47,198 nt of DNA from an uncultured Erysipelotrichaceae bacterium (GTDB taxonomy: Bacteria > Bacillota_I > Bacilli_A > RF39 > UBA660). A program made the translations under genes and the position numbers. The stretch is from positions 1 to 47,198 of the forward strand of contig CADAWN010000005.1 in the NCBI GenBank assembly GCA_902791625.1, given 5' to 3'. The first letter of the stretch is position 1, and the number at the start of each line of letters is the position of its first letter. A model generated the notes under the pieces. It was not told the origin of the DNA. It worked only from the letters and a program-made list of their open reading frames with translations, and made no database searches. This document shows, one piece after another, positions 1-33,626 of this stretch.

Positions 1-880
1 CTGTAACAGGTGCACTTAATATATCATACCAATTAAATGCCTTTCCTGTTTTGTTAATTACCTTATTTAAATTTGGATTAGATGTATCAGATTTCATTAG
101 CGCTCCTTGATATATTTGAGTTACTTTTTCTGGAATTGTAATTTTAGTAAGATTGGCAGTAGCAAATGCAGAGTATCCTATACTAGTAACATTTTTACCT
201 ATTACAACTTCCTCTAATTTTGGTGATGGAGTATTAGATGAGAAATAACCATGTTTTATTTCAGTTATACTATCACCAATTACAAATTTTCTTACTTCTG
301 AAGTATTAAATAATCCATAATTTAGTTCAGTCACACCATTTCCAGTATAAAATTCTTTTATTTCAGCATTGCTAAATGCTCCAGAATTTAAAGTTGTAAT
401 AGTATCAGGAATTACTAATTTTTCCATTTTAACATTACTGAATGTACCTCCATCTATTCTTGTAACTTTTTTAGGAAAATCAATACTTGTTAATCCTGCA
501 TCTGCAAATGCTCCAGGTTCTATTGTTGTAATATCATCATTTAAAACAACTTTAGTTAATGAAGTACACTTAGCAAAAGTTCCAGCTTTAACAATAGTAA
601 TACCCTTACCAACATTTGCAAAAGTCAAATTAGTATTATGATAAAAAGCTCCTTCTCCTATATAAGTTACACTATTTGGAATAGCTACTCCTTTAAAAGA
701 ATTATTACCAAAACTATAATAAGGATTTTCTTCATCATCTTTTAATAAATCTTCAATTGTTGTAATTGTTGGTGAAATAACTAATACTTCTGATGTTATT
801 TTACTATCAAATGCATCTCCTGCAACTTTAGTTACTGTTTTACCATCTATACTTGTTGGTAAAGCAATGTGTATATACTT
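1..880 (-). pseudogene. BspA-like leucine-rich repeat region, out of frame with its N-terminal part; runs off the window
   Basis: Read on the minus strand this stretch is open for about 290 codons without a stop, from about 880 down to position 1. It encodes repeats of the BspA/LRR_5 type: recurrent units such as IPNSVTYIGEGAF, TTIEPGAFADAGLTSI and TSIGYSAFATANLTKI, about 21-23 residues each. Such repeats form surface solenoids in gut bacteria and are used for binding host or community ligands. It has no start codon or ribosome site of its own. Its first residues (LPTSIDGKTVTKVAGDAF) look like the natural continuation of the protein encoded at 847-1524, but in the -1 frame. The two are probably one gene broken by a frameshift or by a sequence error. 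The C terminus lies outside the window. Confidence 0.8.
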
Positions 881-1524
881 TCATCTATATAATCACCACA
901 TATTGTGTTATATTGTGATGTTGATATATTTCCTTCAGCATATAAATACTGATTACAACTTCTTGGTCTTACTACTGCATTATTATTTGCTTGAACATAT
1001 TTAATCTCAAATGTTAAATCTATTGTTTCTGTTCCTTCTGGTAACTTTGATGGTTCTATATCTGTTCTATACTCAAGTCTTACAACATATGTATCTCTTG
1101 TATGTGCTGTTAACTTATCATTTACTTTTACTTCACTTCCATCTTTATATTTTACACTATAATTAATATATTCTTTTTGTCTTGCAGTTAAGCCACTATC
1201 AGTTATAGTTTCAATCATAGCATCCAAACTACCATCATTTACAGCATCTACAGAGAATTCATAGAAATCTCCTGGCTCACTTAACTCTATATCATATTCA
1301 ACTATAGTTTTATAGTAATCTACTATTCTAGTAGCACTATTTCCATGTATTGGTGAACTTCCTTCTTTTACTTGTAAATTATCCCAATATACATTCCATC
1401 TTGCACTTTTAACACTAGATGAACCGTTTATTTTTAGTGTTGTTGCAATAAGAGCGTATCCTACACTTATTGCAAGTAACAATACTAAAAATATAAATAC
1501 TTTTTGATTCTTATTTTTCTTCAT
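847..1524 (-). CDS. N-terminal part of a secreted or membrane-anchored BspA-like surface protein (frame-broken)
   Basis: The 225 residues start with a Lys/Asn-rich stretch and one hydrophobic segment (about 9-28, VFIFLVLLLAISVGYALIAT). This looks like a signal or anchor for export. The rest (about 35-190) is a beta-rich extracytoplasmic domain (WNVYWDNLQV, FYEFSVDAVNDGSLDAMIE) resembling immunoglobulin-like or TasA/camelysin-type segments; no precise family is claimed. The ATG at 1524 follows a good AGGAGAG site. The ORF stops at a TAG (847-849) shortly after the frame in which the LRR repeats continue has become open, so this is most likely the 5' half of a longer gene. It stands apart from greA, behind the greA terminator. 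Confidence 0.7.
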   Translation of the reverse strand: MKKNKNQKVFIFLVLLLAISVGYALIATTLKINGSSSVKSARWNVYWDNLQVKEGSSPIHGNSATRIVDYYKTIVEYDIELSEPGDFYEFSVDAVNDGSLDAMIETITDSGLTARQKEYINYSVKYKDGSEVKVNDKLTAHTRDTYVVRLEYRTDIEPSKLPEGTETIDLTFEIKYVQANNNAVVRPRSCNQYLYAEGNISTSQYNTICGDYIDESIYTLLYQQV

Positions 1525-1577
1525 AACTACTCTCCTATTATAATTAAATTCTATATCAGTAACTAGTTTTAGTCAAT

Positions 1578-1601
1578 AAAAAAAACAAGTATTTCTACTT
1601 G
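1578..1601 (-). terminator. Intrinsic terminator of greA
   Basis: On the minus strand a 6-bp stem CAAGTA/TACTTG with a GAAA tetraloop is followed by eight T. The greA stop codon (TAG) lies in the loop and stem, so the terminator overlaps the end of the gene. Confidence 0.8.
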
Positions 1602-2065
1602 ATTTGTGTAATTTTAATTTCGTAACTTCCATTAGGAGATTCTACTGTTACTATATCTCCAACTTTATGATTCATAATAGCTTGAGCAATTGGAGATTCA
1701 TTAGAAATTCTACTTTGGAATGGATCTGCTTCTTGTACTCCTACAATTTTATATTCTTCTTCATCATCGTCATCTACATATTCTATAGAAACAGTACTAC
1801 CTAATCCTACAACATCTTTAGGTACATCAGTAATAACTGAAACATTTTCTAACATTTTTTCAATAGTTTTAATTCTACCTTCTATTTGTGCTTGTTCATT
1901 CTTAGCAGCATCATAATCTGCATTTTCTGACAAATCACCTAAACTTCTTGCTTCTTTAATAGATTGTATATTTTCAGGTCTACGAACATTAATTAAATTA
2001 TCAAGTTCTGCTTTTAATTCAGCTAGACCTTCTTCTGTTAAATATACAGTATTTTTGTTTGTCAT
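1595..2065 (-). CDS. greA: Transcription elongation factor GreA
   Basis: GreA enters the RNA polymerase secondary channel and stimulates cleavage of backtracked RNA. The 156 residues match the family length. Residues 1-75 form the coiled coil with the acidic tip motif GDLSENADYDAA. The C-terminal half is the FKBP-like domain (GLGSTVSIEYVDDDDEEEY, then SPIAQAIMNHKVGD). The ATG follows a GAGGTGG site. In B. subtilis greA closes the same yrzL-yrrO gene cluster; here it keeps that place but has its own promoters upstream (2099-2127 and 2170-2198) and its own terminator. Confidence 0.96.
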   Translation of the reverse strand: MTNKNTVYLTEEGLAELKAELDNLINVRRPENIQSIKEARSLGDLSENADYDAAKNEQAQIEGRIKTIEKMLENVSVITDVPKDVVGLGSTVSIEYVDDDDEEEYKIVGVQEADPFQSRISNESPIAQAIMNHKVGDIVTVESPNGSYEIKITQIK

Positions 2066-2098
2066 TTTTATCCACCTCTTATATTAATAACTTTCTAA

Positions 2099-2127
2099 AT
2101 ATTACTACATAATATTCAAAAAGTCAA
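2099..2127 (-). promoter_or_regulatory. Probable greA promoter (proximal)
   Basis: Minus-strand TTGACT, 17-base spacer, TAATAT, about 35 bases ahead of the greA start. Fits a sigma-A promoter; read by eye only. Confidence 0.5.
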
Positions 2128-2169
2128 GATTTATTCACTTGTTTTCCTTCTTTTACGGAAACTGTGCTT

Positions 2170-2198
2170 ATTATACCACATTTTAACGTTTTTGTAAA
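2170..2198 (-). promoter_or_regulatory. Probable greA promoter (distal)
   Basis: Minus-strand TTTACA, 17-base spacer, perfect TATAAT, just downstream of the dGTPase-like gene. It would give a roughly 100-base leader containing a small GTTTCC/GGAAAC hairpin. No clear terminator separates it from the upstream operon, so greA may also be reached by read-through. Confidence 0.6.
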
Positions 2199-2208
2199 TG
2201 TTTTAAGC

Positions 2209-3324
2209 TTATTTTTTAGCATTTTTTATGAAATAATCATCAGTCATTCCTGCAATAAAATCAATAACTTTTCTCTTTGTTTTAGTACTCTGATTATACT
2301 CTTCATTTTGATTATTTAAAAATACTTTGAATATCTCACTATCAAAGTTTTCGTTATCAATATCATTTACATATTTTTGATATAATTCATTCATCTTTTC
2401 TTTATATAATTTATGTTCAGACTCATTTAAAGATTTATAATATATGTTCTTATAATTAAAATCTTTTAATGCTTCTATTGCATTATAAACTTCATCACTT
2501 AACATAATATATGGTTTATTAATACTATTTTTAATAATATCTGTAACTATACTATTTACTATTTCTCTATTTGTATTTCCAAGTACCTTAGTTATTTCTT
2601 CTGGTATATCACTTCTATTTAGTAATCCTAAATTAATTGCATCCTCTAGGTCTCTACCGATATACGCGATAATATCAGATATTCTAACAACACAACCTTC
2701 TAATGTCATAGGCATAATATTATTATATTTTTTATCTTTATAACAATTATTATATTGATTTATTACATCATCTTTACTCTTTTTTACAGGTTCATATTTT
2801 TGTAGCAATACTTCTCCGTTATGACAAAGAATTCCATCAAGTGTTTGAATAGTAAGATTACTTCCTCGACCATTATTTTCTATAACAAGATAATTTCTCA
2901 TACTTTGAACATTATGACAAAAATATTCATCTAATTCTCTTCTACTTATTTCATTTAAGAAAGACTCTCCAGTATGTCCAAGTGGAGTATGCCCAATATC
3001 ATGACCTAATCCAATAGCTTCAATTAAATCACAATTAAGTCTTAAACTTCTTCCTATAGCACGAGCTATTTTACTAACTAACTGAACATGAACTATTCTT
3101 TTACTAATATGATCATTTTCTTTAAAAGAATATACTTGAGTTTTATCCATATAACGAGTATATGATAATGAATAAATAATTCTATCTGCATCTCTAAAGA
3201 AAGGTGATCTATAATCATCTTCTTCTTGTTTTATTCTTACTGCATCACTACTTTTTGTAGCAAACTCACTTAAATATTCTTCACATAATAAAAAGTTCTT
3301 TTTAGCTTCATTTAATTCATTCAT
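2209..3324 (-). CDS. dGTPase-like HD-domain phosphohydrolase
   Basis: Likely a deoxynucleoside triphosphate triphosphohydrolase, releasing tripolyphosphate from dGTP or a related nucleotide. Its 371 residues carry the family features: FFRDADRIIYS-YTRYMDKTQVY near 42-65, the first HD ligand His79, and the signature HDIGHTPLGHTGE at 108-120. The C-terminal half is all-helical and poorly conserved. The ATG overlaps the stop of the upstream U32 gene by one base (TAATG), so translation is coupled. In B. subtilis the uridine kinase gene udk sits at this point between yrrO and greA; here an HD hydrolase replaces it. Substrate is not deducible from sequence. Confidence 0.85.
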   Translation of the reverse strand: MNELNEAKKNFLLCEEYLSEFATKSSDAVRIKQEEDDYRSPFFRDADRIIYSLSYTRYMDKTQVYSFKENDHISKRIVHVQLVSKIARAIGRSLRLNCDLIEAIGLGHDIGHTPLGHTGESFLNEISRRELDEYFCHNVQSMRNYLVIENNGRGSNLTIQTLDGILCHNGEVLLQKYEPVKKSKDDVINQYNNCYKDKKYNNIMPMTLEGCVVRISDIIAYIGRDLEDAINLGLLNRSDIPEEITKVLGNTNREIVNSIVTDIIKNSINKPYIMLSDEVYNAIEALKDFNYKNIYYKSLNESEHKLYKEKMNELYQKYVNDIDNENFDSEIFKVFLNNQNEEYNQSTKTKRKVIDFIAGMTDDYFIKNAKK

Positions 3325-4508
3325 TATATTACCTCTTTTCTTAACATAGAATATTCTTCTACTTCAAATGGTATATCTACTTCAATATAATATATTTCAT
3401 CTGGATGTCTAGCAACATCTAATATATTCTTATCTTTATCATAAAGTTTATCCACAGTAAATGTTAATAACTTTTTAGATGGTGTGAATAAATCTACTTT
3501 ATCTCCTTTTTCAAAATAATTTCTTTCTCTAATTTCTAATAATTTATTTTCTTTATCATAAGAAATTACTTGTCCAAGATAATCTTGATTAGATATTTCT
3601 TGTCTTCCAGTAAAATATTGATCAGTTTCATCTGCATCTCTTAAATAGTACTGAGTACTTACTTCACGATTAGCTACTCTACTTAATACTTTTTCATAAT
3701 ACTCTAATTTTTCTTCAGTTAACTCATTATTATAATAGTCATCTATTATCATTCTATAAGTACCTATAACAGTAGCAAGATAATAATGACTTCTCATTCT
3801 TCCTTCTACTTTTAAACTAGCTACTCCCATATCTATTAATTCAGTTACGTATCTTGCCATATTTAAATCTTTAGTAGCTAGTGTAAACTGTTTATCTGTA
3901 TCTGTATCAAATGAAAATCTACATACTTGAGCACATCCTCCTCGATTAGCATCTCTATTTGTAACATAATTAGACAGTGCACATCTACCACTTACACAAG
4001 TACACATAGCACCATGAATAAATACTTCTATATCTATTTTAGTTTTATCAATTATCTCTTTAATTTCATCTTTATTAAGTTCACGAGCTAAAACTATTCT
4101 ATCTACTCCAATACTTTTTATAAACTCTCCTGCTTTATAATTCATAGTTGAACTTTGAGTAGATAAATGAACTTCAACATTATCATAGTTTTTCTTAATA
4201 TATTCACATATTGAAATATCACTAACTATAAAAGCATCTATTCCACAATTAACTACATCATCAATATATTTAAATACATCTTTAATATCATCATTATGAA
4301 ATACTATATTTAAAGTTAAATATACTTTCTTATTAAGTTTATGTGCGAAACTACATCCTTCTTTTAATTCATCTAATGTAAAGTTAGTAGCATTAGCACG
4401 TAAACCAAATTGTTTACCTCCTAAATATACAGCATCAGCTCCATATAATAAAGTAACTTTTAATCTCTCTAAATCCCCTGCTGGAGATAATAATTCTACT
4501 CTTTTCAT
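3324..4508 (-). CDS. trhP2: tRNA uridine-34 hydroxylase subunit, peptidase U32 family (YrrO/TrhP2 type)
   Basis: U32 proteins of this type (E. coli TrhP/YegQ; B. subtilis TrhP1/TrhP2) hydroxylate U34 of tRNAs to 5-hydroxyuridine. The 394 residues start with the conserved ELLSPAGDLERLK. They contain the U32 signature around 161-178 (E-x-F-x2-G-A-M-C-x4-G-R-C-A-L-S) and cysteines 169, 176, 192 and 196, the expected iron-sulfur ligands. A C-terminal barrel-like domain follows. It overlaps the upstream trhP1 by ATGA and the downstream HD gene by TAATG. With trhP1 and trmR in the same operon it points to the mo5U34 pathway. It is unlikely to be a peptidase despite the family name. Confidence 0.9.
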   Translation of the reverse strand: MKRVELLSPAGDLERLKVTLLYGADAVYLGGKQFGLRANATNFTLDELKEGCSFAHKLNKKVYLTLNIVFHNDDIKDVFKYIDDVVNCGIDAFIVSDISICEYIKKNYDNVEVHLSTQSSTMNYKAGEFIKSIGVDRIVLARELNKDEIKEIIDKTKIDIEVFIHGAMCTCVSGRCALSNYVTNRDANRGGCAQVCRFSFDTDTDKQFTLATKDLNMARYVTELIDMGVASLKVEGRMRSHYYLATVIGTYRMIIDDYYNNELTEEKLEYYEKVLSRVANREVSTQYYLRDADETDQYFTGRQEISNQDYLGQVISYDKENKLLEIRERNYFEKGDKVDLFTPSKKLLTFTVDKLYDKDKNILDVARHPDEIYYIEVDIPFEVEEYSMLRKEVI

Positions 4509-5335
4509 TTTGTCACCTTATATATTGTCTTACGATATAAGAAACCTGTATCGCTCCCAAATATATCCCTCATCTTATCAACATAATCTAAATTATTATT
4601 ATCTATATACTCTTTAGTTAGTTTTAAAGCTTCTAAAAAACTATTATGATTAATATCATCTTCTATTAAATAAATATAATCTAATTTATTATCAATTAAT
4701 TCTTTTAAGCATGATGCATTATTTCTAATTTTATTATATTTAAATGTTGTACCAAATTCACTTTCTATTACTTTATATTCTTGTAATGATTTAGGTTCTT
4801 TAATCTTTAATTCTTTATCGAAATCACTATTAGTTAATAGTTTTCTCTTAGAAAAAGATACAACTGGATAACCAAGTAACATAAATATAAGTTTTGCTTT
4901 AGCATTCTTTTTAAATTCTATTATTTCATCTATAGTAATTTCATTAGATAAATAACTATACTTACATCCCTTATCATAATAATAATTACTTGTATAATAA
5001 TTAGTTACCATATGAGTATTATTCCATACTAAATCTATATTTAAATTTAATTCTTTTTTTAATTCTAAAACAGCAAGATCATAAAAGAAAACTCCACTAA
5101 TATTTAGTTTATCTAGTTCTAGTAAAACTTCTTTTAGATTTTCAATTTCATCATTTTCTATCATTTTATTAATTACAACAAATATCTTTTTATTTGTCTC
5201 ACTAATTAATTTTTTTATATCATCTAGTGAGTAATAATTTTTATAGTCAACAGAAAAATTAAGAAGTGGTAAAACAAATCCATCTGCTTCTTTATATTCT
5301 AAAATATTATTAGTTGGTTTTATTAATATTTCCAT
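4505..5335 (-). CDS. trhP1: Divergent U32-family partner protein (YrrN/TrhP1 position)
   Basis: The 276 residues are a short, divergent U32-like protein: a TIM-barrel-like pattern with LLNFSVDYKNYYSLDDI near 24, DLVWNNTHMVTNYYT near 100-115 and LIFMLLGYPVVSFSKRKL near 150-165. It lacks the cysteine signature that trhP2 carries. The assignment rests mainly on position: it lies directly upstream of trhP2 and downstream of trmR, as yrrN does in B. subtilis. It overlaps trhP2 by ATGA, using TGA as stop, which argues for standard code. The ribosome site AAGGAG is clear. It probably forms a complex with, or supports, TrhP2. Confidence 0.7.
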   Translation of the reverse strand: MEILIKPTNNILEYKEADGFVLPLLNFSVDYKNYYSLDDIKKLISETNKKIFVVINKMIENDEIENLKEVLLELDKLNISGVFFYDLAVLELKKELNLNIDLVWNNTHMVTNYYTSNYYYDKGCKYSYLSNEITIDEIIEFKKNAKAKLIFMLLGYPVVSFSKRKLLTNSDFDKELKIKEPKSLQEYKVIESEFGTTFKYNKIRNNASCLKELIDNKLDYIYLIEDDINHNSFLEALKLTKEYIDNNNLDYVDKMRDIFGSDTGFLYRKTIYKVTK

Positions 5336-32790: not shown

Positions 32791-32810
32791 AAAAGCACTA
32801 ACGTGCTTTT
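32791..32810 (-). terminator. Terminator of the proline-rich repeat protein gene
   Basis: Minus-strand 8-bp stem AAAAGCAC/GTGCTTTT with a GTTA loop, then TTCTTTT; it adjoins the stop codon. Confidence 0.78.
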
Positions 32811-33594
32811 ATGGCATTAATGAATCAATATCATTTGATTTTGTTTCAGGAACAGCTGGTATAACACTTACTGTTGGCTGAGGTTCTTCACTAACTGGAG
32901 TAACACTTGGTATAGTAACTGGTGCTTCTTCAACCTTAGCTACAGGTTCTGTAACACTAGGTGTAACAGTTAATGTTTGTGTATTTTCTAATGGATCAGC
33001 TCCACCATATATTTGATGTTCTTCTTTTTTACTTAAATCTATATTTGGAATAATTTGACTTACCCCACCATATATTGCTGGTTTTTCTTCTGCAACAGGT
33101 GTTGTAGCTGGTTCAACAACAGGTGCTGGAGTTGGTTCAACAACAGGTGCTGGAGCTGGTTCAACAACAGGTGCTGGAGTTGGCTCAACAACAGGTGTTG
33201 GAGTTGGTTCAACAACAGGTGTTGGAGTTGGTTCAACAACAGATGTTGGAGTTGGCTCAGCAACAGGTGTTGGAGTAACATCCATAACAGGAATTTCTGC
33301 TGCTCCTACTATTGGATCAGTAACTGCTACTGGTTCAGCAGGAACTTCTATTGGAACTGCCATATCACTTTCACCAATATCTTGTAATGGTGTGCTATCT
33401 ATTTCTATAGGTGCTGCAGTAGTTGCAGTTGCAGTAGCTTCAACAGCATCTTTCTTTTCTTCTTTATTCTCATCTACTTTTTTATTCTTCTTTGATGTAA
33501 CTATAAATATTACTAAAGCTAAAATTAATAAAACAACTCCACATGTTATAAGAATACCAGGAATTGTAGTAAACCAACTTAAATCAAATTTCAT
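32809..33594 (-). CDS. Membrane-anchored Pro/Val/Glu/Thr repeat protein
   Basis: The protein (261 residues from the ATG at 33594, chosen because GAGGGAG lies eight bases upstream) has one N-terminal membrane helix (about 10-32). A Lys-rich stop-transfer and then a long low-complexity region of Pro, Val, Thr, Glu and Ala follow. The centre is an array of VVEPTPxP octapeptides encoded by 24-base repeats. Two YGG motifs (AIYGGVSQII, QIYGGADPL) flank IDLSKKEEH. No sorting signal is visible. Basic residues after the helix suggest the tail is cytoplasmic, though the opposite orientation is possible. It may be an extended spacer or scaffold; function unknown. Confidence 0.8.
   Translation of the reverse strand: MKFDLSWFTTIPGILITCGVVLLILALVIFIVTSKKNKKVDENKEEKKDAVEATATATTAAPIEIDSTPLQDIGESDMAVPIEVPAEPVAVTDPIVGAAEIPVMDVTPTPVAEPTPTSVVEPTPTPVVEPTPTPVVEPTPAPVVEPAPAPVVEPTPAPVVEPATTPVAEEKPAIYGGVSQIIPNIDLSKKEEHQIYGGADPLENTQTLTVTPSVTEPVAKVEEAPVTIPSVTPVSEEPQPTVSVIPAVPETKSNDIDSLMP
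33098..33265 (-). repeat. Seven tandem 24-base repeats encoding VVEPTPxP
   Basis: Consensus on the plus strand is ggtgytggagytggytcaac plus aaca. Copies differ at a few wobble and Thr/Ala positions. A partial eighth copy follows. In-frame 24-base units allow copy-number change without frameshift. Confidence 0.95.
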
Positions 33595-33626
33595 AATCAT
33601 TCTCCCTCTAATTTTATTCTAAATAT

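Follow-up and report, generated by a model that had tools for sequence, protein, structure and literature searches.

The minus-strand gene at this contig end raises the question of whether one surface protein or two are encoded here, and of what separates the two reading frames. The window that was analyzed is contig C5 in full (47,198 bases), taken from a genome assembly (G000) of 61 contigs and 1.53 Mb; because the window is the whole contig, the gene runs into the contig end. The original prediction described a BspA-like surface protein gene split by a frame break, with a secretion-type ORF ending at 847 and leucine-rich repeats continuing in the -1 frame from 880. The ORF list, a frame scan, and the match to Pfam family PF13306 bear this out, and the string AGTATATACACATTG quoted with it is found at the crossover. 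Frame A carries a signal-type N terminus and a domain tentatively assigned as TasA-like, and frame B lies one frame back (-1) from it, with an overlap of 34 bases, stop codon included (Table 1). There are 0 stops in the 293 codons of frame B between 880 and the window start. The likeness of frame B to BspA-type leucine-rich repeat proteins is strong (PF13306, LRR_5, BspA type; E = 1.5e-78, 261.2 bits), above the curated cut-off of 27.7. Stop density on the minus strand between positions 1 and 1600 ranges from 0.066 to 0.141 per codon in the three frames, open parts included. Judged against this local density, the stop-free length and the strong family match indicate that frame B is not open by chance. 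The difference from known BspA-type proteins is that the repeats of the window gene do not share a frame with the secretion domain and are probably not made.

Table 1. Coordinates in the window of the features of the broken gene and its conserved neighbors.
Feature	Position	Strand	Basis
Frame A: signal-type N terminus and tentatively TasA-like domain, 225 codons	850..1524; stop codon 847-849	(-)	ORF list (ATG start), structure model, relatives
Frame B: 293 open codons of BspA-type leucine-rich repeats, cut by the contig end	2..880	(-)	frame scan, Pfam, relatives
AGGAGA, ribosome-binding-like, just 5' of the frame A ATG	1531..1536	(-)	sequence
Junction: last frame A homology at 868, first frame B homology at 865	865..868	(-)	relatives with 55-56 extra codons (165-168 nt)
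TATATA, three units, slip site suspected in the original prediction	872..877	(-)	identical place and length in both relatives
Motif NLNKVINKTGKAFNW, aligned with the C-terminal cap in relatives	29..73	(-)	comparison with G003 and G002
greA, upstream neighbor; also adjoins the corresponding place in G001, G002, and G003	1595..2065	(-)	synteny, neighbor families
HD-domain hydrolase, conserved neighbor	2209..3324	(-)	synteny, neighbor families
U32 peptidase genes (two), conserved neighbors	3324..5335	(-)	synteny, neighbor families

The corresponding position was compared in the three same-genus genomes listed by the genome search (G001, G002, and G003), four counting the window's own. An intact syntenic homologue, the mark by which a truncated allele is recognized, exists in G003, where greA is followed by one 1355-codon ORF that carries both the TasA-like domain and the repeats and matches PF13306 with E = 9.8e-199. 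The syntenic homologue in G002 (contig C63, locus L078) also has both parts in one frame, with a single in-frame amber codon (TAG) inside the first domain; that genome is 77% complete with 6% contamination. In both G002 and G003 the homologue has the HD hydrolase and U32 peptidase genes as neighbors, along with greA. The position after greA in G001 is occupied by another large ORF of 1687 codons. A homologue is therefore present at the greA position in three of the four genus genomes, the window's own included, and one of these three is unbroken. Frame A is 50% identical to the G002 protein and 45% identical to the G003 protein up to frame A residue 219. The corresponding values for frame B are 41% and 34%, with the alignment beginning at frame B residue 6. 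These two proteins are the only relatives found that combine the TasA-like domain with the repeats. Two of the three copies at the greA locus are interrupted, and the lesions differ, being a frame break in the window and an amber codon in G002.

Alignment to the two relatives locates the break. Residues 1-229 of the G003 protein correspond to window positions 1536-868 and residues 286-582 to positions 865-98, and blastp with each window frame alone gave end points that agree with this mapping. The segment between the two domains, absent from the window, measures 168 nt in G003 and 165 nt in G002 (55-56 codons). The two relatives resemble each other at the ends of this segment (ENEDGT.TLTGF and FKDN), and its middle is poorly conserved between them. 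The break had been attributed to the loss of one base or the gain of one TA unit, but the relatives carry 165-168 additional nucleotides at 868/865 that a slip in the tract does not explain. We conclude that the locus probably derives from a single ancestral gene with an internal deletion of about 165 bp, and that it probably represents a genuine truncated allele or pseudogene belonging to a quickly turning-over surface protein family. The ancestral gene would have encoded a signal peptide, the TasA-like domain, a linker of about 55 residues, and then the BspA-type leucine-rich repeats. One internal deletion of about 165 bp would have spanned the domain/repeat boundary, and the frame would have been lost because the length deleted was not a multiple of three. 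A ribosome leaving the TasA-like domain would, as read from the sequence, add six foreign residues and stop. The predicted outcome is truncation to 225 residues, counted before signal cleavage, with the repeats left untranslated. Reading the locus as two genes would be wrong, and so would reading it as a TA-tract phase switch. The main value of the analysis is this corrected reading, in which the frame break is confirmed and its mechanism is replaced.

The size of the deletion depends on the linker of the ancestor. Since the linker middle is poorly conserved and the relatives are few and distant, the ancestor of the window gene may have had a shorter linker and the lesion may have been smaller. 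The same poor conservation between G002 and G003, together with the shorter repeat array of the window, would also suit a naturally linker-free version of the gene that later acquired a separate one- or two-base indel. We give little credence to this history, which demands two events at one point and has to contend with linker ends that are alike in both relatives. If the deletion is real, the state of frame B bears on its age. Single substitutions would create a stop in frame B in 4.6% of cases, and the probability of finding no stop after 60 random substitutions (6.8%) is 0.058. The 293 stop-free codons therefore limit the age of a real lesion, and the lesion appears young because the repeat frame is still free of stops.

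The TA tract had been singled out as a possible phase-variable site, and slipped-strand changes in it could in principle turn the gene on and off, as in Candidatus Mycoplasma girerdii. The gene class fits this explanation, and dinucleotide-repeat switching in BspA-like genes has a published precedent: PMC5476646 places eight BspA-like genes of that organism among those with length-variable repeats. The M. girerdii genes described there resemble the window gene in having truncating frame breaks, in encoding BspA-like surface proteins, and in coming from a metagenome assembly. They differ in that their breaks lie at dinucleotide repeats whose length variants were measured in reads, whereas the break in the window combines a three-unit tract with a missing segment. 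Three units fall below the five or more marked in the PMC5476646 map. TATATAC is unchanged in place and length in both same-genus relatives, and TATATA occurs 83 times in the window compared to 99.6 expected, so it is not above chance. A switch would also leave the absent 55-56 codons at the junction unexplained. These data make a TA switch highly improbable and turn against the original choice of the short tract as a possible phase-variable site. Assignment to the simple-repeat phase-variable class, which requires a dinucleotide repeat of at least five units at the break, was rejected for a tract of only three. Phase-variable BspA-like genes are already published in PMC5476646, and the window gene is without their type of repeat.

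The 34-base overlap and the clean state of frame B are also what would be expected if both halves were made from one message by programmed -1 frameshifting or by restart. Among the 17 in-frame heptamers between 892 and 844, none has the X XXY YYZ form. The earliest possible frame B start codon is a TTG at 628, and neither relative uses two frames at this place. The probability of either process is close to negligible. Both candidates, a programmed frameshift and an internal restart, were rejected on the absence of a slippery heptamer in the overlap and on the position of the first frame B start.

An assembly artefact is the alternative that has to be taken most seriously, although we consider it unlikely: the source gene would be intact, and a short-read or strain-mixture assembly would have lost the segment near the contig end. 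The assembly is fragmented, the bin has an estimated contamination of 6.33%, and the junction lies 0.87 kb from the contig end. On contigs C22 and C2 of G000, two paralogs are also without part or all of the most conserved motif of the family. The repeat array, at 293 codons compared to about 1,070 in G003, is far shorter and could reflect assembly trouble. Against an artefact, nothing else in G000 substantially matches the 111 bases around the junction (best 28 bases, 86%), so a repeat collapse at the junction would be without an evident template. There is no N within window positions 1-3600. Control gene pairs (window versus G002 or G003, identity of at least 45%, covering 21 of the 40 window genes tried) were clean, with 30 of 30 in a single frame over more than 85% of their length. 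The window is thus sound elsewhere, where relatives permit the check. A search of G000 with residues 227-280 of the G003 protein (numbering of that search) gave no match at E ≤ 0.001, so the missing piece is not recognizable on another contig, and an intact second copy of the gene was not found elsewhere in the assembly at the same threshold. Besides a phase-variable switch, the original prediction offered a recent pseudogene or a sequencing error, and one of these last two causes is probably right.

The contig end cuts the gene short. The match of the G003 protein to the window end motif stops at residue 1328 of 1351 and that of the G002 protein at residue 1408 of 1436. The motif sits 23 residues from the C terminus in G003 and 28 in G002, so about 20 residues are probably lost beyond the contig end. 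The gene that is the downstream neighbor was located on contig C43, which starts 73 bases ahead of its open frame. No 15-mer is common to C43 and the first 600 window bases, and the two contigs therefore could not be joined. A search for a related locus in viral contigs gave three pattern-matching stretches, none of which was a relative. Elsewhere in the window, a tandem repeat array at 33093-33276, with units of about 24 bases by eye, lies inside an ORF at 32809-33600 (-) and contains two 112-base stretches that are 91% identical.

The truncated product would consist of the domain in frame A and a short tail. Frame A was modeled together with 18 of 19 family loci; L048 was left out beforehand because its frame possibly holds a stop. 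The frame A model has a mean pLDDT of 81.6. Its likeness to the TasA/SipW-type filament proteins of Bacilli rests on Foldseek, in which the best match among solved structures is the TasA fiber 8aur (E = 7e-4), and on the presence of TIGR02228 in the genus genomes. The structural scores are middling. In the VIA table 8aur has a Z of 6.0, close to many Ig-like rows, and the list is headed by 7pnb, an archaeal filament with a Z of 7.8. The TasA assignment from the model is tentative, because TasA does not lead the VIA table and is level with many Ig-like folds. The Pfam and NCBIfam matches name no TasA, camelysin, or SipW-substrate model, in searches that short or distant models may escape. The TIGR02228 signal-peptidase family is above cut-off in all four same-genus genomes (G000, G001, G002, and G003). 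Controls matched as well (8 of 14 genomes, among them archaea, with four over cut-off), and the family covers other type I peptidases; it is therefore weak support for SipW-type export. A further difference from TasA/SipW-type proteins is the fusion of the domain to repeats in G002 and G003. The 225-residue product is close in size to family members that stand alone, which span 171-215 codons from stop to stop. Four TasA-like genes form an array in G001 (C14:10800-16600, L137), and a TIGR02228 match lies on the same contig at 11582-11938.

The domain was present in 47 of 48 regions scanned from four genomes. Seven loci among the matches listed are frame-broken: the window, G000:C22, G001:C96, G002:C63, G002:C32, G002:C21, and G002:C22. 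This count is rough, as several members are cut by contig ends, some regions contain more than one, and the scan listed no more than seven pieces for each region; the break in the window itself was visible in the alignment to relatives but not in the 48-region scan. Stops within hits at G000:C27 and C12:64938 mark where intact genes end and were excluded. The excess of frame breaks in the family (7 loci, 47 regions) over the controls (0 of 30 pairs) is only suggestive, because the control genes are conserved, pairs below 45% identity had been dropped beforehand, and the broken count is rough. The pattern supports the idea that broken members occur often in this family. The window gene is best regarded as an ordinary truncated representative of a changeable surface protein family.

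Other members have lost parts of the domain or appear to be mosaic. The paralog on G000:C2 has lost part of the domain in frame, and the one on G000:C25 (L088) has lost the N-terminal half and lies beside a truncated DUF1016 gene. The G002 loci on C32 (L150) and C21 (L151) have unrelated flanks and different C-terminal parts, yet they are identical over the first 225 alignment columns of the gene, including a shared frame break where the signal region ends. Their upstream blocks are 54-56% identical and most of their C-terminal blocks 44-65%. This looks like cassette copying between loci, and the identity could also come from collapsed assembly repeats. A broader proposal, which we regard as improbable, is that the TasA-like genes of the genus form a reshuffling repertoire. 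Near-identical N-terminal cassettes would be copied among loci with unrelated flanks and different C-terminal domains; deletions close to or at domain boundaries, whether frame-breaking or in frame, would routinely silence or free the C-terminal parts, and the window break would be one product. If the broken and mosaic pattern is real in the organisms, it would suggest rapid surface-protein remodeling in uncultured Bacilli.

Three of the G000 loci show further detail. L082 (C22) and L086 (C2) are 91-98% identical through the N domain. Different lengths are missing from them at the most conserved motif, EPGDFYEF, with a right-hand end point that is apparently common, and the loss is out of frame in one of the two and in frame in the other. 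A DUF1016/YhcG gene lies directly upstream of the L086 paralog. In L088 (C25), positions 2462-3749 join a DUF1016_N gene to the C-terminal half of a TasA-like gene, an arrangement that resembles a fusion by deletion.
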